Shown in pieces: positions 68 to 13,532 of a stretch of DNA of 64,000 bases (position 1 is the stretch's first letter; each line of letters begins with the position of its first letter). Both the position numbers and the translations under genes were made by a program. The notes below the pieces were generated by a model. It was given only the letters and a program-made list of their open reading frames with translations, had not been told where the DNA came from and made no database searches. Origin of the DNA: Bacteroidota bacterium (GTDB taxonomy: Bacteria; Bacteroidota; Bacteroidia; Bacteroidales; UBA12481); NCBI GenBank assembly GCA_018669475.1, contig JABHCC010000137.1, positions 1 through 64,000 on the forward strand, given 5' to 3'.

Positions 68-135
68 TAGTATTAATGGTATGAGCTTATACGTCCGGTG
101 GCTGAGATTTGTGATCTTTAGCTACCGGAGGTTGA

Positions 136-195
136 GTTCAACAATGTTTATAATTTATGCCCATTCGGGCACAAATCATACACTAAACGTTATGC
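136..195 (+). other. attC-like recombination hairpin, short form (site A)
   Basis: The box GTTCAAC (136-142) and the box GTTATGC (189-195) flank an imperfect inverted repeat. TGCCC (158-162) pairs with GGGCA (167-171) across a 4-nt loop, and the stem continues through A/T pairs to G146-C183. It is then interrupted by an asymmetric internal loop (AAT on the left, TAAAC on the right) before AAC pairs with GTT. The same plan is seen at 2371-2420. Integron attC sites have AAC/GTT termini and asymmetric bulges, which is why I call it attC-like. No integrase is visible. Confidence 0.6.
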
Positions 196-228
196 CCAAT
201 TAATGCGCAGCAGTAAATACTAGATATT

Positions 229-588
229 ATGGATAGAGTAAATATTAGTGATAAATTAGATTTAATAAAAGATTTCTGGAAACCAATAATAGTTGGGGAG
301 CTTAATAATCAACAAGTAAGATTGGTCAAGATTAAAGGTGAATTCGTTATGCACCACCATGATAATGAGGATGAATTGTTTCTTGTAATTAAAGGAGCTT
401 TAAAAATGGATTACGGTGATAAGATAGTTGATGTAAACGAAGGTGAGTTTATTATCATTCCAAGAGGAGTAAAGCATAAACCAATCGCAGATTCAGAGAC
501 TCATTTATTGCTTTTTGAACCAGATACCGTGTTGAATACAGGAAATATTCGAAATGAATTTACGCTTGATTCTCCAGAACGGAAATAA
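229..588 (+). CDS. cupin domain protein
   Basis: This 119-residue single-domain cupin is probably a small cytosolic metal-binding beta-barrel. The first cupin motif is clear at residues 42-50 (HHHDNEDEL), giving two His and one Glu ligands. The second motif has the usual G-E-F-I-I-I-P run and a His in RGVKHKP near residue 84. There is no signal peptide. Proteins of this class are often annotated as mannose-6-phosphate isomerase-like, but no substrate can be named. It lies between site A and a DUF3795 gene that begins only 2 nt after its stop, so the two are probably co-transcribed and carried as one cassette. Confidence 0.85.
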   Translation: MDRVNISDKLDLIKDFWKPIIVGELNNQQVRLVKIKGEFVMHHHDNEDELFLVIKGALKMDYGDKIVDVNEGEFIIIPRGVKHKPIADSETHLLLFEPDTVLNTGNIRNEFTLDSPERK

Positions 589-590
589 AA

Positions 591-1043
591 ATGGATTACG
601 AACTCATAAAAAAAAGGCTAGCTCCATGTGGACTACATTGTGGAAAATGTTTTGCATTTAAAGATGGTGATATAGGAAAGTTTAGTTTTAAGTTAAGAGA
701 ATCATTAGGGGATTTTGATGTTTATGCTAAAAGATTTGTTGACTTAATTGATGAGCCTGTATTTCTTAAATACCCGGAATTTAAAGAGATGCTAGACTAT
801 ATGTCATTACCACAATGTGGAGGATGCAGAGAAGAAAAGTGTAAGCTTTTTAAGGGGTGCAAGGTAAGAGAATGCTCCGAAAGGTTGAATGTTGATTATT
901 GTTTTGAATGTATTGATTTCCCATGTAATAATACTGGATTTGATGAACACCTTCAAAAACGTTCGGTAGAAATAAATACTCGTATGAAAGAAATTGGAGT
1001 TGATAATTATTACGATGAGATTAAAGATAAATCAAGATACTAA
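591..1043 (+). CDS. DUF3795 domain protein
   Basis: This 150-residue protein is Cys-rich. It has an N-terminal APCGLHCGKC motif (residues about 11-20), a central CGGCREEKCKLFKGCKVREC cluster (about 76-95) and a later CFECIDFPC segment (about 104-112). This spacing is typical of DUF3795, a family of unknown function thought to bind metal. Transcription is probably coupled to the cupin gene 2 nt upstream. A 128-bp attC-like inverted repeat begins 16 nt after its stop, as expected for the last gene of a cassette. A+T-rich codon use matches the neighbouring cassette genes. Confidence 0.82.
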   Translation: MDYELIKKRLAPCGLHCGKCFAFKDGDIGKFSFKLRESLGDFDVYAKRFVDLIDEPVFLKYPEFKEMLDYMSLPQCGGCREEKCKLFKGCKVRECSERLNVDYCFECIDFPCNNTGFDEHLQKRSVEINTRMKEIGVDNYYDEIKDKSRY

Positions 1044-1059
1044 TTGAAAAAAGAACAGG

Positions 1060-1187
1060 GCATAACACGCGCTATAAATAATTTGGTAGTCAGTGGTTTG
1101 CGAAGTTATTGGCTTTTAATTATGTTTACTGTAAACAGTAACGTGAGTGCTTTAGTTTGCCAACTATTCATAGCCCGATCGTTAGTA
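1060..1187 (+). other. attC-like recombination site, long form (site C)
   Basis: GCATAAC (1060-1066) and GTTAGTA (1181-1187) bound a 128-bp imperfect palindrome. The left arm GCTATAAATAATTTGG (1071-1086) pairs with the right arm CCAACTATTCATAGC (1160-1174) with a few mismatches and one extra T. The long central part carries a small TTTACTGTAAA palindrome near 1125. Size and terminal AAC/GTT boxes resemble long attC sites such as VCRs. No other function is evident. Confidence 0.6.
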
Positions 1188-1227
1188 TTAATTGTAAAGA
1201 ACCACAAATGCATTAAGTGAACATGAT

Positions 1228-1824
1228 ATGAAGAAATTAATAATTACAAGCTTTTTTTTAATGAGCTTATTTGCATGTGACAAGGAGAACACACAACCCG
1301 ATCTAGAATATTTTAATAATATTATTGCGGGAAAAACCGAAGGAATAGGTATTAAATATTCAGAGATGTTAACTGACACACTATTTTTTTATTACCCTTC
1401 TTCAAATACAAATAGATATATTGATATTAATGATGATGGAATAAATGATTTTGATTTAAAGTTTTCAGGTACTGCTTCTCCTGGTCATGGAAATTCAAAT
1501 AATACAATTTTAACCATAGGAAATAGTTTTTTAGCAATACCTGAGTTTGAGAGTTATATTGTTGACACTATTCCAATTAATGATACAATTGACGACAAAT
1601 TAATTTGGGTTAATGATACCTGTATATTATACAATTATTATTGGGAAGCGTCTGGGAATTCATCAAATACTGGATTATGGAATGATGTAAGAAACAAATA
1701 TATTGGGACAAAGATACTTGTTGAAGATAAGGCATTATTTGGATGGATACGAGTAGAAATTACTTCTGGATGGAATCTGACTTTGATTGAATATGCATGC
1801 ACGGTTGGATTTGAATTAGAATAG
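1228..1824 (+). CDS. hypothetical lipoprotein
   Basis: This 198-residue predicted lipoprotein has the signal peptide MKKLIITSFFLMSLFAC, with the lipidation Cys at residue 17. The mature part is beta-rich and acidic, with a DINDDGINDFD stretch near residues 67-77 that looks like a dockerin or FG-GAP type calcium loop. I do not recognise the family. It is preceded by site C and followed by half of another attC-like site, so it fits a single-gene cassette. The base composition is very A+T rich. Confidence 0.6.
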   Translation: MKKLIITSFFLMSLFACDKENTQPDLEYFNNIIAGKTEGIGIKYSEMLTDTLFFYYPSSNTNRYIDINDDGINDFDLKFSGTASPGHGNSNNTILTIGNSFLAIPEFESYIVDTIPINDTIDDKLIWVNDTCILYNYYWEASGNSSNTGLWNDVRNKYIGTKILVEDKALFGWIRVEITSGWNLTLIEYACTVGFELE

Positions 1825-1831
1825 CAACTAA

Positions 1832-1896
1832 AACTAACAATATATATAAAAAATAAACGAGATAACAGTAACATCAAAGCTTGTAGCCCGCTTGAA
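1832..1896 (+). other. left half of an interrupted attC-like site (site E)
   Basis: The segment from AACTAAC (1832-1838) through about 1896 matches most positions of the left half of site D (4153 to about 4215). Both read AACAATRTATA, then an A-rich run, then GTAGCATCA-like and TTGTAGCCCGCTTGAACT-like blocks. After TTGAACT the similarity stops and transposase coding sequence begins. No right half follows, so the site appears to have been cut by the arrival of the transposase fragment. Confidence 0.45.
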
Positions 1897-2395
1897 CTCC
1901 AAGGCTATCAAAAAGGTATTCAGAGAAACGGTGAAAGTTGCCAAGCATTTCAATCTTATTGGTGGTACCCTGATCGCCGGAGACAGTACAAAGCTCCGAG
2001 CACAAAACAGCAAGAAAAATAATTTCAACCAGAAGAAGATATCCCGACATTTAGAATACATTGAGAACAAACTTCGCGAATACAATGAAGCTTTGGCTGA
2101 AAGTGATGGTGATAATAAAAGAATAATTGAGGAGGAAATAGGGAAGCAAGAACACCGGAAAGCGGTGTATAAAAAGATTTACACACAGCTCAGTGAAAGC
2201 AGTGAACCACAGGTTTCCACCTCAGATCCTGACAGTCGTCAAATGATTACTCGAAACAACATTACTGAAGTAGCCTATAATCTACAAACGACAGTAGATG
2301 CGAAAAACAACCTTCCGGTTGATTACAAAGTGACCAACACAAATGACAGCAAGGCAATGGGCAAACTGGTGCTAACAATGTATATAGCACATTAA
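1892..2395 (+). pseudogene. IS1182-type transposase fragment
   Basis: This is an open reading frame of 167 codons matching the middle of IS1182-family DDE transposases. It has SKAIKKVF, a first catalytic-type Asp in LIAGDSTKLRA (about residues 28-38), a Lys-rich coiled segment, and DYKVTNTNDSKAMGKLV with the second Asp-type motif. Full transposases are about 450-550 residues, and here both the N-terminus and the C-terminal third are missing. Similarity ends at about base 2367, exactly where the attC-like hairpin 2371-2420 begins. The last residues are therefore read from the recombination site. It cannot be functional. Confidence 0.8.
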
Positions 2396-2420
2396 AACGC
2401 GCCATACACTAAACGTTAGC
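2371..2420 (+). other. attC-like recombination hairpin, short form (site B)
   Basis: GCTAAC (2371-2376) pairs perfectly with GTTAGC (2415-2420). An internal loop of AAT (left) against TAAAC (right) follows, then G2380-C2409 and T2381-A2408, a mismatch, three pairs, a mismatch, and G2387-C2402. The loop sizes and mismatch positions equal those of site A, and both share CATACACTAAACGTTA on the right. It lies directly on the broken end of the transposase fragment. Confidence 0.62.
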
Positions 2421-2493
2421 TTTCATTAGGAGATCACTAGAAAAGTGAATTTGAAAGCATCTTTCCGTATCTTAGTAGAAGATCAAAATATAT

Positions 2494-3204
2494 ATGACCA
2501 AGGAAGCAGCTATAAAACTATTTCAAGACCATAGGGTTCGTGTAGAATGGGATAATGATCAAGAAAAATGGCTCTTTTCCATCATTGATATCATCGGAAT
2601 TTTAACTGAAAGTGAACGGCCAAGAAAGTATTGGTCTGACCTTAAAAAGAAGTTGCGTACGGAGGGAAGTGAAGTGTCCGAACATATCGGACAGTTGAAA
2701 ATGAGATCGCCAGATGGAAAAATGAGACAAACCGATGTGGCAGATACTGAGCAACTTTTACGATTAATACAATCAATCCCTTCTCCGAATGCTGAACCTT
2801 TTAAAATCTGGCTAGCTAAAGTTGGATATGAACGCATTGAAGAGACTGAAGATCCTGAAAAATCGTTTGATCGGGCCATGGAGACTTATTTGCGAAAAGG
2901 CTATTCTGTAAATTGGATTAATCAGCGGCTGAAAAGTATTGAGGTTAGAAAAGAACTAACAGACGAATGGGATATCATAGGAGTAAAGAAAGGATCGGAA
3001 TATGCTATTCTTACAGATGAGATAACTAAAGCATGGGGATGTTGTTTTGAATCATTGCATTTGAAAGGCCAACCTCGTGTTGTGGTTCTCCCAGGCGCCT
3101 CTGCTCTGGGAATTGCAAAGTTGAAAGTTGGTACGTTGAAATGCCCGCCAAATTTTAACCCAACCGTTATGAACAAAAATGAGTACTATATTCAGTATGA
3201 ATAA
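2494..3204 (+). CDS. Bro-N domain protein with atypical C-terminus
   Basis: Residues about 5-110 match the BRO family N-terminal (Bro-N) DNA-binding domain (FSIIDIIGILTES, RKYWSDLKKKL, PSPNAEPFKIWLAKVGYERI). Residues 110-178 match the middle of the usual bacterial Bro-N proteins (SVNWINQRLKSIEVRKELTDEW, EYAILTDEITKAW). After residue about 178 the normal family ending is absent. It is replaced by about 58 residues read from sequence that ends with an attC-like right arm (AACCGTTATGA, 3160-3170). These proteins resemble phage antirepressors, and a role in DNA binding is inferred. Probably truncated by cassette recombination, so function is uncertain. Confidence 0.7.
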   Translation: MTKEAAIKLFQDHRVRVEWDNDQEKWLFSIIDIIGILTESERPRKYWSDLKKKLRTEGSEVSEHIGQLKMRSPDGKMRQTDVADTEQLLRLIQSIPSPNAEPFKIWLAKVGYERIEETEDPEKSFDRAMETYLRKGYSVNWINQRLKSIEVRKELTDEWDIIGVKKGSEYAILTDEITKAWGCCFESLHLKGQPRVVVLPGASALGIAKLKVGTLKCPPNFNPTVMNKNEYYIQYE

Positions 3205-3250
3205 TGAAATCCCGATGACCTTTAATTATTTCCATAATAAGAATACATAA

Positions 3251-4135
3251 ATGATAAGCTCTGACAAGAACTCTTTAAAAAGAAGTAAGAATAAAATAAT
3301 TACGTTTTTATCACTTACATTTCTATTAAGCACAGTATTCTGGGTCCAATTTTTTTTATTAGGAGAAATACCTTCAGGAGGAGGATTAATAGGATTAGGA
3401 TTGATGTGGAGTCCAGGTATTGCTGCTATAATTACCAAAATAGTTTTTGACAGAAATTTACGTGGAATGGGATGGAAATGGGGTAAAACTCATTTTGTGC
3501 TAATGGGCTATATCCTTCCTGTAATAGTTTTCTCATTAATCTACATTCCCATCTGGCTTTTTGGGTTTGCTGAATTTTCTAGTGAATATCTCACCTCTAG
3601 AATTGCTGATGCTGTGGGTTTGGAGAAACCAATATCGCTTGGCCTGACAATTTTAATACAATCCACTTTAGGCTTATTAACGGTCATTATTCCAGCATTG
3701 GGAGAAGAAATAGGCTGGCGTGGACTCCTTGTACCTGAGCTTGCAAAACGGATAAGTTTTACTAAAATGGCTCTAGTTGTGGGTGGGATCTGGGCCATCT
3801 GGCATTACCCAATGATGTTTTTGGGACATTCTGAAGAGACCAATATGCTTCAACACATAGTTTTCTACACTGTGAAGTTGCTTGCTTATTCATTTATTAT
3901 TTCTTGGTTGGTTCTTAAGAGCGGTAGTATCTGGCCTGCTGTTTTTATGCATGCAAGTGGCAATTTATTTCTAGAGGGGGTTTTTAATGATCTAACAGTA
4001 AGTAACAATATTACCAGAATATTATTGGACGATGCTGGATTTGGAGTAGTTGGTGTTTATATAATCTTTGCATACGTATTTTGGCGTAAGAAATCTGAAA
4101 TAGCTAATAGTTTATTAAAGATTACGAATGGGTAG
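3251..4135 (+). CDS. CPBP family intramembrane metalloprotease
   Basis: This 294-residue polytopic membrane protein has about eight hydrophobic segments. The CPBP (Abi/CAAX protease) motifs are present: EEIGWRG at residues about 155-161, AIWHYPMMF at about 181-189, and HASGN near residue 235. Members are intramembrane glutamate or metallo-type proteases. In bacteria they process peptides or give self-immunity to bacteriocins, but no substrate gene lies next to it here. It starts 46 nt after the Bro-N gene and is followed by attC-like site D, consistent with a one-gene cassette. Confidence 0.88.
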   Translation: MISSDKNSLKRSKNKIITFLSLTFLLSTVFWVQFFLLGEIPSGGGLIGLGLMWSPGIAAIITKIVFDRNLRGMGWKWGKTHFVLMGYILPVIVFSLIYIPIWLFGFAEFSSEYLTSRIADAVGLEKPISLGLTILIQSTLGLLTVIIPALGEEIGWRGLLVPELAKRISFTKMALVVGGIWAIWHYPMMFLGHSEETNMLQHIVFYTVKLLAYSFIISWLVLKSGSIWPAVFMHASGNLFLEGVFNDLTVSNNITRILLDDAGFGVVGVYIIFAYVFWRKKSEIANSLLKITNG

Positions 4136-4152
4136 TGCGGGAAGATTTCTGT

Positions 4153-4314
4153 TCATAACAATGTATACAAAAAAAAAGCTAGATGGCGGTAGCATCAGGG
4201 TTTGTAGACCGTTTGAACTTTATTGTCAGTTGAAAGTTTTGTATTTTGGAATCCCTTACTTTTTAACCTTAACACCAAGCCGAAAAGCGTAGTAGATCGC
4301 ACAACGTGTTATGC
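4153..4314 (+). other. attC-like recombination site, long form (site D)
   Basis: TCATAAC (4153-4159) and GTTATGC (4308-4314) form six end pairs (CATAAC with GTTATG). Inside them the left strand has AAT and the right strand AACGT before G4163-C4302 and T4164-A4301. That repeats the 3-nt/5-nt internal loop of sites A and B, although the inner stem is poorer. The 160-bp centre contains no gene. Its left half is shared with the interrupted site E at 1832-1896. Confidence 0.5.
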
Positions 4315-5555: not shown

Positions 5556-5961
5556 GTGAACTGAGATGAAAAAGGGGCCTCCCTTTATGCTACATTAAAA
5601 AACAAAGGGGTTGAATGGAGAATAAATTATCGCTACACTGTAACGACAATTGTAATGTTGGGTTTCTAAAATCTGAGATTGTCCTCGGTTTAATTGCTGC
5701 AGAGCAGAAAAGTGAGACTTGAAAAAACCTACAAGAAATCTTTCTGAGCATTAAAAGCATAAAAAGAACGCAGCTTAATAACATGCAAACACCATAGCAT
5801 TCAGTGAAAGTACAAGCATCGCTTCCCGCTCGATCCAATTTCCTTCATGAAACTAGATCACACGCTTGGCTGCGGCCTCTGCACCGAACGTTATCGGTAA
5901 GATTCCAAACGTGTATTTTGAATAAATCATAAAGAATACAAATCAAACCTAAGAGGAAAAA
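5556..5961 (+). other. 406-bp gap with an attC-like right end (site F)
   Basis: No convincing gene is seen here. The minus-strand open frame at 5590-5838 has no recognisable domain. Near the right end, CACCGAACGTTATCGG (5882-5897) has the GTT-type box seen at the other sites. No clear matching left arm was found within 150 bp, and ATAAC near 5778 is only a weak candidate. I take it as a degenerate or divergent attC-like site. Confidence 0.3.
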
Positions 5962-12604: not shown

Positions 12605-12648
12605 TTGAGCATATGCTTATATTTGCAGTGATTATATTGAGCATATGC
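12605..12648 (+). promoter_or_regulatory. direct-repeat operator and promoter of the DUF134 operon
   Basis: The 12-mer TTGAGCATATGC occurs at 12605-12616 and again at 12637-12648, with start points 32 bp apart, about three helical turns. Each contains the palindrome GCATATGC. Between them TATATTTG (12618-12625) fits the Bacteroidota -7 box TAnnTTTG. The second repeat contains the ATG start codon at 12645, so a bound protein would cover both promoter and start. Autoregulation by the DUF134 protein is an inference. Confidence 0.55.
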
Positions 12649-12959
12649 CCAGAAAGAAGTGTGTTAGAATTGTTGCTAATGAACCTGGAACGGTTTACTA
12701 TAAACCGATTGGTATTCCCTGCCGGATGCTTACCGAGATAGTTATCCATGTTGATGAATATGAGGCAATTCGATTAGCAGATCATCATGATTTGTATCAT
12801 GAAGAAGCTGCTGAACGGATGCAGGTTTCAAGAGCTACATTCGGACGAATTCTTTCAGTGGCAAGATCTAAAATCGCTGATGCCATGGTAAATGGTAAAG
12901 CTATAAAAATTGAAGGTGGAAATTTTACACTGAATGAAGACAGACCATGCCACAAATGA
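12645..12959 (+). CDS. DUF134 helix-turn-helix protein
   Basis: This 104-residue protein matches DUF134 (UPF0251). It begins MPRKKCVRIV, has the conserved EIVIHVDEYEAIRLADHHDL (about residues 30-49) and a sigma-70-region-4-like HTH (HEEAAERMQVSRATFGRILS). The family is a DNA-binding regulator usually found beside NifX/NafY-like proteins, as here. The next gene overlaps it by 13 bp. The start codon lies inside a repeated GAGCATATGC element, suggesting tight control of its own expression. Confidence 0.9.
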   Translation: MPRKKCVRIVANEPGTVYYKPIGIPCRMLTEIVIHVDEYEAIRLADHHDLYHEEAAERMQVSRATFGRILSVARSKIADAMVNGKAIKIEGGNFTLNEDRPCHK

Positions 12960-13177
12960 ATCATACCGGTCCGGATGGAAAAGGACCTCGAACAGGTCGT
13001 AAATTAGGTAAATGTAAAGACAAGGACGATGCTGATCCCGCCAATCTGGGAACAGGAATGGGTAAAAAGCGTCGCTCAGGAGGAGGCTCAGGAAAAGGCC
13101 AAAGGTTGAAAAGTAGTAAATTATTTAATAATCAAACAAGTACAGATAATGAAGATTGCAATTCCAACAAGGAATAA
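12947..13177 (+). CDS. small glycine-rich DUF5320-like protein
   Basis: This 76-residue polar protein starts MPQMNHTGPDGKGPRTGRKL and continues with GxGxG-rich and Lys-rich stretches. The N-terminal TGPxGxGPxTGR pattern is like the DUF5320 family, which commonly lies next to NifX-like and DUF134 genes. Two Cys residues (in GKCKD and DCNSN) are the only likely metal ligands. It overlaps the DUF134 gene by 13 bp and the following gene by 29 bp, implying translational coupling. Function unknown, probably part of the same metal-handling unit. Confidence 0.72.
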   Translation: MPQMNHTGPDGKGPRTGRKLGKCKDKDDADPANLGTGMGKKRRSGGGSGKGQRLKSSKLFNNQTSTDNEDCNSNKE

Positions 13178-13532
13178 CCAGGTAGATGCCCATTTCGGAC
13201 ATTGTGAGTATTACACGATTTTTATTGTTGAAGATCAAAAAATATTAAGTGTTGAACCAATGCAATCCCCAGAAGGATGTGGATGCAAATCAGATATTGC
13301 CAATACCCTTATGGAGATTGGTGTTTCATTGATGTTGGCTGGCAACATGGGAGCCGGTGCCTTACATAAATTAAACAGTTTTGGAATCGAAGTAGTAAGA
13401 GGCTGCTCAGGTAATGTTGAGGATGTGGTAAACGAATATCTAAAAGGTCAAATCCAGGATTCAGGCCAGGGTTGTAGTCAACACGAGCAACATCACGGCG
13501 AGGGACAAAGTCACGGACACAGTTGTAACTGA
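13149..13532 (+). CDS. NifX/NafY-like dinitrogenase iron-molybdenum cofactor family protein
   Basis: The protein has 127 residues. The Nitro_FeMo-Co fold begins MKIAIPTRNNQVDAHFGHCE, the usual start for this family. It continues with a LMLAGNMGAGALHKLNSFGI segment and EVVRGCSGNVEDVVNEYL. The C-terminus (residues about 108-127) is His/Cys rich (HEQHHGEGQSHGHSC), suggesting extra metal binding. Relatives outside nitrogen fixers (MTH1175 type) bind metal clusters of unknown use. No nif genes are present. It is the last gene of the three-gene operon. Confidence 0.88.
   Translation: MKIAIPTRNNQVDAHFGHCEYYTIFIVEDQKILSVEPMQSPEGCGCKSDIANTLMEIGVSLMLAGNMGAGALHKLNSFGIEVVRGCSGNVEDVVNEYLKGQIQDSGQGCSQHEQHHGEGQSHGHSCN

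Follow-up and report, generated by a model that had tools for sequence, protein, structure and literature searches.

Candidate attC-type cassette sites and a non-IntI tyrosine recombinase in an integron-like system of Bacteroidota

The first 64,000 nt of contig JABHCC010000137.1 (here C71) from a Bacteroidota bacterium of the order Bacteroidales (assembly GCA_018669475.1), referred to as the window, carry two short hairpins, sites A and B, and three longer relatives of these, sites C, D and E, with open reading frames (ORFs) and a transposase fragment between them (Table 1). The window holds a decaying array, in which A and B are complete short sites, C is a complete long site, D is cut, and E is degraded at its end. 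Hairpins A and B are very likely attC-type cassette recombination sites of an integron-like system that uses a recombinase other than IntI.

Site A is made up of R'' GTTCAAC, a spacer AAT, an inner stem, a spacer TAAAC, and R' G↓TTATGCCC, in which GTT occupies 189-191; it is the bottom strand that was modelled. An earlier note on this DNA had described a right-hand word shared by A and B, an asymmetric spacer of AAT against TAAAC between AAC/GTT pairs, and inner stems that diverge in sequence, and all of these are present. The word, CATACACTAAACGTTA, has two exact copies, at 177-192 and 2403-2418, and the rest of the window has none, even with up to 3 mismatches allowed. Shuffled windows contain a mean of 0.40 matches, with at least two in 5 of 100 shuffles, and the recurrence of the word by itself is modest evidence. 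When both strands are folded, as the note had proposed, the bottom strands beat their shuffles (z -2.81 for A and -2.02 for B); the top strand of B does not (z 0.14) and that of A is nearly equal to its bottom strand (z -2.53). Site C folded alone is not better than its shuffles (z 0.05), and no Rfam family matches the window at gathering score.

Structural evidence also comes from relatives. Other genomes of the order supply seven longer sites (~134 bp), located via TAACAATGTATA, that line up with A and B in an alignment of nine seeds (A1). In the bottom-strand structure named for it, 93.0% of 185 cells are paired and 9 of the 21 pairs have two-sided changes. Covariation scores 0.385, where shuffles give 0.160 and slid versions no more than 0.157. 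For 75 sites fitted with the site model R1, of which A and B are seeds, 92.6% of cells are paired, 339 are two-sided, and covariation is 0.579 against a control of 0.162, in an alignment that leans toward the structure to which it was fitted. No extrahelical base is common to the nine seeds, three of which have an extra T; instead, two G.T pairs of the inner stem are nearly constant (60 and 65 of the 75 rows). Folded as single sequences, only one of four long relatives, L067, is clearly better than its shuffles (z -4.10); z is -0.57 to 0.14 for the remaining three. The earlier note had made its case depend on further copies in the genome and on covariation in the stems. There are no copies in the genome outside the contig, where R1 at E ≤ 1 finds only sites A, B, and E, to which a search of the window alone adds weak matches at C and at 1830-1938; the covariation is supplied by the relatives in other genomes. 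An initial pattern, AACAATGTATA, has four matches in the genome beyond the window, none with a right half by eye.

Cassettes in an integron array begin at the G↓TT of the previous site, and their first bases pair with the R'' of their own site. This was assessed over six bases beyond the core, with all but one position outside the R1 pairs. Consecutive sites with intact cores agree at 6/6 in 13 of 24 pairs (of 37 pairs listed), against 1.3% of random pairs, while agreement within a site has a mean of 1.98 of 6 against 1.97 for random pairs. Among arrays of related genomes that lie beside recombinase loci, 23 of the 34 consecutive pairs agree at 6/6 (random pairs, 1.6%), as do 15 of 25 (named loci) and 20 of 37 (divergent-type loci) in further sets. 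The sets overlap in part: L067 and L120 are in both the 24-pair and 34-pair sets, and L236 of the 25-pair set is the contig of L174 in the 34-pair set. Left out beforehand were L129:1-123, which is cut at one end, and two weak opposite-strand matches in L069 from the 24 pairs, L235 and L250 from the 25, opposite-strand duplicates in L284 and L287 from the divergent-type set, and L182:4770-4870 (17 bits, opposite orientation) from the set of 14 loci described below.

The same relation is seen in the window. Cassette 1 begins with GTTATGCCC, which at 9/9 bases is the reverse complement of GGGCATAAC, the R'' of its own site C; beyond the core, 6/6 bases match. The start of cassette 2, GTTAGTATT, agrees with R'' of site D, AAAACTAAC, at 5/6 positions beyond the core, counted by eye. 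For the cassette after site B, only 1/6 is matched with R'' of site E, the degraded right end of which has no GTT (ACCAAGCCG). Site D is truncated by the transposase fragment, its end being placed by eye, and by eye it resembles the left half of L067 9996-10129. The ORF in L174 to which this fragment is related presumably encodes an IS1182-type transposase.

Table 1. Features of the cassette region, in window positions; scores are those of R1.
Feature	Position	Strand	Details
Site A, complete short attC-like site	134..197	+	61.4 bits, E 3.2e-10; seed of R1
Cassette 1, two ORFs	190..1181	+	cupin 229-588; DUF3795 591-1043
Site C, complete long attC-like site	1058..1189	+	25.3 bits, E 0.028
Cassette 2	1182..1838	+	ORF 1228-1824, lipoprotein-like by eye; no Pfam match
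Site D, left half of long attC-like site	1830..1905	+	16.1 bits, E 3.1, alone not significant
Transposase internal fragment	1892..2395	+	by-eye homology to 526-aa ORF adjoining a site in L174; no Pfam match
Site B, complete short attC-like site	2368..2423	+	50.3 bits, E 9e-8; seed of R1; GTT 2415-2417
Fused or rearranged cassette	2416..4159	+	BRO-N ORF 2494-3204; CAAX protease ORF 3251-4135
Site E, long attC-like site	4151..4282	+	62.6 bits, E 1.7e-10; not a seed of R1

A possible further site at ~5787-5893 was noted by eye only and is not among the R1 matches at E ≤ 10. Beyond the cassette region, the neighbours include two ORFs at a short distance from each other, named by eye as DUF134-like (12645-12959) and dinitrogenase-iron-cofactor-like (13149-13532).

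Other features were noted at cassette junctions. In L068:14333-19291 (G026), GTT gives way to a common word, (G/A)ATGATATAGCAT, after four neighbouring sites. In the arrays of L166 and L284, the sequence that comes next is identical for several different sites (GTTAATGGGTCAG, GTTATAACCAAC, GTTGAAGAAGAAT), possibly through repeated cassettes or elements at the cassette start. The R' side is replaced by GTCAGACTGTCTA in six distinct places (L174:4001-4127, L118, L122, L124, L132, L111, and L236 are named). The 526-aa transposase ORF of L174 lies within 100 bp after such a site and an AAA-type ORF (by eye) accompanies that of L118; a matching other end for GTCAGACTGTCTA was not found in three of the six places. 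An element may target the sites bearing this sequence, and passages of PMC11187229 describe some IS1111 members that target attC.

The arrays adjoin genes for a tyrosine recombinase, mostly of ~280-675 aa, that scores under the IntI cut-off. The copy in the genome of the window is G000:C104:93873-95264, of 463 aa. Its residues R318, K343, H407, R410, H433, and Y442 are invariant in 24 aligned relatives and, by analogy, would be the catalytic residues. It aligns to chain residues 16-185 and 244-319 of VchIntIA (2a3v), with only 15 residues of the query between, and the match to TIGR02249 has the same gap. The IntI of genome G339 fits TIGR02249 positions 1-315 unbroken. The missing stretch is taken to be the IntI additional domain, or patch, which the array-linked enzyme lacks. 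The closest models and structures for the family are XerA (Xer-like). For the Xer equivalog model NF040815, the product name of which is 'site-specific tyrosine recombinase/integron integrase' and the cut-off 220 bits, the protein scores 234, six of seven others score 192-219, and the IntI of G339 scores 129.

A phylogenetic tree places 36 of the 38 proteins from Bacteroidota that are array-linked or related in a single clade (support 98/94), with the site-bearing L250 and L251 falling outside it. The IntI proteins of four genomes of the order (G211, G339, G093, and G278 only, two rows being left out) group with proteins of Vibrio, Nitrosomonas, Pseudoduganella, and Geobacter (100/100). The two Xer proteins of the window's genome lie apart from the array-linked clade on long branches, because of which the deeper branching order is unsure. 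The same genome has two other tyrosine recombinases, L005 (C211) and L008 (C116), that adjoin transposases of IS91 type by eye. These proteins of ~250-300 aa are related to the array recombinase, but lie outside the main array-linked clade and have no R1 site in the stretches read (L028, L030; one weak match elsewhere, L029).

The stretch from the recombinase gene to the first site contains one GTT at which the next bases complement the first R'', at 9/9 positions in 11 of 14 loci and at 8/9 in 3. With R'' exchanged between loci, 9/9 is found in 1 of 180 pairs. The match is also 9/9 in 9 of 13 named loci. In the divergent type, it is 9/9 in four of five loci and 8/9 in one, 76-201 nt from the gene edge, in searches of regions up to 2.6 kb with no exchanged control. 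Several of these sites have, by eye, an inverted repeat just ahead of the crossover. In relatives an attI-like site lies beside the integrase gene at the start of the array, as in canonical integrons. The earlier note's suggestion that the sites are recognized as folded single strands, in the manner of attC, finds support in these starts, as it does in the stem covariation and the cassette-end complementarity.

In the genome of the window, the attI-like GTT is at C104:95388, preceded by GTACCCGAAAGTCTTCGGGTAC, an imperfect palindrome, and is not joined to an array. Contig C104 ends 263 bp past the recombinase gene and 139 bp past the first base of this GTT, and the first bases of C71 lie within the cassette closed by site A. 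At 12/13 positions the bases that open the cassette on C104, GTTGAACTAAACC, agree with the complement of R'' of site A, GTTGAACTCAACC; since other genomes share this cassette start, the agreement is no more than suggestive. The C71 array may continue, on a separate contig, from the integrase and attI of C104, with one first cassette broken between them.

The position of the arrays is polar. In the 14 loci, picked partly for known sites, 48/48 sites are downstream of the recombinase gene and codirectional with it, as are 25 of 27 sites in 20 loci picked by rank and room. Among 80 named loci found by protein alone, which repeat some earlier ones (L236 as above; L204 is the contig of L193), 39 of 40 sites have this position. 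The titles of all 15 site-bearing named loci place them in Bacteroidota, and no site was found at the 39 loci not taken as Bacteroidota. Isolates represented include Flavobacterium aciduliphilum DSM 25663 (L218), Winogradskyella ursingii HL4150 (L210), Algibacter onchidii XY-114 (L233), Algoriphagus ornithinivorans DSM 15282 (L219), and Seonamhaeicola aphaedonensis CECT 8487 (L211). In a sample of the phylum, among the matches listed (101 recombinases, to E 4e-88 and with the window's genome left out, and 150 sites), 27 sites within 20 kb are downstream and codirectional, 17 are upstream and divergent, and none is placed otherwise, so that 44/44 point away from the gene. Among the same listed matches, all 22 sites (15 loci) of proteins with a matched N-terminal repeat are downstream and codirectional, and 17 sites (9 loci) of proteins without one are divergent. 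On this evidence, the arrays run away from the recombinase gene in two architectures.

Many contigs stop just past the gene, as is expected if the downstream DNA varies between cells or is repeated in the genome. Of the best 134 rows of the recombinase list, 67 are minus-strand genes, and 30 of these have a contig break within 600 bp on the 3' side; among the 67 plus-strand genes, 6 have one on the 5' side. The very last bases of two contigs, L137 and L147, are ...GTTG and ...GTTA.

Most of the aligned enzymes have one to three N-terminal repeats of ~65 residues, 18 of which have an invariant F, W, and W. The best match of the repeat profile in the PDB is the HARP domain of SMARCAL1 (4o66, E 0.0066). 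Pfam HARP (PF07443) matches 9 of the 18 repeats at E ≤ 1, the best at 6.8e-6, with member 1 under the cut-off. Profile and weak fold similarities connect the repeat with the structure-specific domains of SMARCAL1 HARP, UvsW, and XPB; those domains are fused to helicases, the repeat to a recombinase. HARP domains fused to other SNF2 proteins confer annealing-helicase activity, according to passages of PMC4035279. The HARP-like repeats may read the folded attC and so replace the patch.

R1 sites are present in 211 of 393 genomes of the order (E ≤ 1e-4) and in 117 of 296 genomes of the phylum, counts that are low since stricter filters were used. The recombinase family is found in 143 of the 393 (E ≤ 1e-40), including some short relatives beside IS91-type transposases. 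Recombinase and sites tend to occur together in the order, where 119 genomes have both, 24 the recombinase only, 92 sites only, and 158 neither (Fisher p 6e-20). No prevalence is drawn from the A3 profile in the phylum (264 of 296 genomes at E ≤ 1e-45), in which Xer proteins are probably counted. Canonical IntI (TIGR02249 over its cut-off) is found in only 6 of the 393 genomes, and in the genome of the window searches with TIGR02249 and NF011946 gave no IntI over cut-off, only Xer-like proteins below it. The earlier note did not foresee this scarcity of IntI, or that another recombinase family heads the arrays. The gene-capture system looks widespread in Bacteroidota.

As for the IntI genes themselves, those in G018, G093, G196, G211, and G339 (L082-L086, L091-L098), which have no site of this family in the stretches read around them, resemble In0, and the G196 copy has a stop codon. 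The contig in G278 with the highest IntI score may be contamination: by eye it carries attC DNA of the canonical proteobacterial type, and in the tree its IntI falls with a protein of Nitrosomonas.

The sites, the cassette ends, the attI position, the association with the gene, and the polarity are all read directly from sequence. Together they suggest a model in which each cassette would consist of a gene and a site, the bottom strand of which can fold into an outer stem, an asymmetric spacer, and a covarying inner stem. The array-linked tyrosine recombinase would cut at G↓TT and catalyse the joining of a cassette to the attI-like site by its own gene, or to another attC, building arrays. Its substrate would be folded single-stranded DNA. 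In one architecture the recombinase carries N-terminal HARP-like repeats, with the array downstream and codirectional, and in the other a shorter protein without the repeat has an array diverging from the 5' side of its gene. The shared features with integrons bearing IntI are attC-type folded sites, the G↓TT junction, cassette-end complementarity, attI by the recombinase gene, and tandem arrays of varied genes. The differences are a recombinase without the additional domain and outside the IntI clade, the HARP-like repeats and codirectional downstream array of the main type, and an inner stem with near-constant G.T pairs in place of a seed-wide extrahelical base. Because the patch was looked for and is lacking, the system is classed as a variant of the integron and not as a canonical member. 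A slight preference is given to the broader view that this is a second integron lineage in Bacteroidota, with a patch-less recombinase outside the IntI clade that reads folded hairpins through HARP-like repeats or, in the short, divergent type, otherwise, such that there would be two protein solutions for folded attC.

Several findings weigh against this reading. In the window's genome, recombinase gene and array lie on separate contigs, with no exact overlap between the end of C104 and the start of C71. Of the 211 site-bearing genomes of the order, 92 lack the protein at E ≤ 1e-40, and the co-occurrence statistic takes no account of shared ancestry. Among rank-and-room loci with at least 1.6 kb downstream, 8 of 15 have sites there; for named Bacteroidota loci with 1.5 kb or more the figure is 13 of 23, and L169 and L173 have the recombinase and no R1 site in 17 kb downstream. 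Among the phylum matches listed, five sites (5 loci) are downstream of proteins without a matched repeat. Two divergent sites at L202 and one at L235 are exceptions to the polarity, and since the L202 protein has a HARP-like N-terminus by eye the split between architectures is not strict. The L166 recombinase (283 aa) has a nine-site array and no HARP repeats. For the predicted N-terminal fold (pLDDT 82.5), Foldseek gives no match at E ≤ 0.001, with 4o66 at E 0.15. Its weak fold matches are UvsW (Z 6.5), XPB (Z 5.9), and 4o66 (Z 4.6; 2.3 Å, 53 residues; VIA), and UvsW, XPB, and MotA, at Z 5-6.5, are under the level that the tool calls safe; the full-model search says little on the N-terminus. 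These three and HARP presumably make up one structure-specific family. The IntI insertion, described in parts of PMC8138268 and PMC9668308 as essential or necessary for integron recombination, is according to the former not fully conserved in an integron-like subgroup.

The alternative that survives best, although improbable, is that these are ordinary attC cassettes in a cluster of attC sites lacking an integron integrase (CALIN), a category described in sections of PMC9024848 and PMC8618304, spread by a canonical IntI that acted in trans or has since been lost, with the nearby patch-less recombinase incidental. Contig C71 alone, with at least two attC sites and no integrase nearby, fits this, as does a genome with several sites and no IntI over cut-off. 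Furthermore, five of the six genomes with canonical IntI have R1 sites elsewhere, two of those in G339 being on the IntI contig itself, ~45 kb away. However, a candidate cognate recombinase is present on C104 of the same genome, and IntI is found in 6 genomes, one of them the possible contaminant G278, against sites in 211. No R1 site lies in the stretches around the six IntI genes (L090-L098), although some of these are only 3-4 kb and, for four of the six genes, the contig is short or comes to an end. It is the patch-less gene that has the fixed polarity, the attI-like site, and the match to the first cassette.

Movement of the cassettes by XerCD or some other housekeeping recombinase, as in Xer-dependent mobile modules, is very unlikely. 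The array recombinase does share its catalytic core and fold with XerA, XerC, and XerD, and the models and structures it matches best are of XerA. Yet it is tied to cassette arrays that start at its gene, often has the HARP-like N-terminus, and belongs to a lineage apart from the genome's own Xer proteins. Although many sites are solitary and scattered over contigs, there is even less reason to regard them as dispersed repeats, such as miniature inverted-repeat transposable elements or repetitive extragenic palindromes, or as RNA hairpins such as terminators, given that complementarity ties a site to the start of the preceding cassette and not to itself and that Rfam has no match in the window.

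According to passages of PMC9024848, IntegronFinder 2.0 notes that earlier only In0 had been found in Bacteroidetes, plus one complete integron in Salinibacter ruber. Passages of other papers count Bacteroidota, or Bacteroidetes/Chlorobi, among the integron-bearing groups. A patch-less integron system of this kind was not found in the open-licence literature. If the reading is true, a large phylum would have a gene-capture system that standard searches may miss. Should IntI be able to use these sites, the arrays would be an additional pool of cassettes. With cassette arrays that are associated with a patch-less recombinase, the requirements for reading a folded attC would become directly testable.

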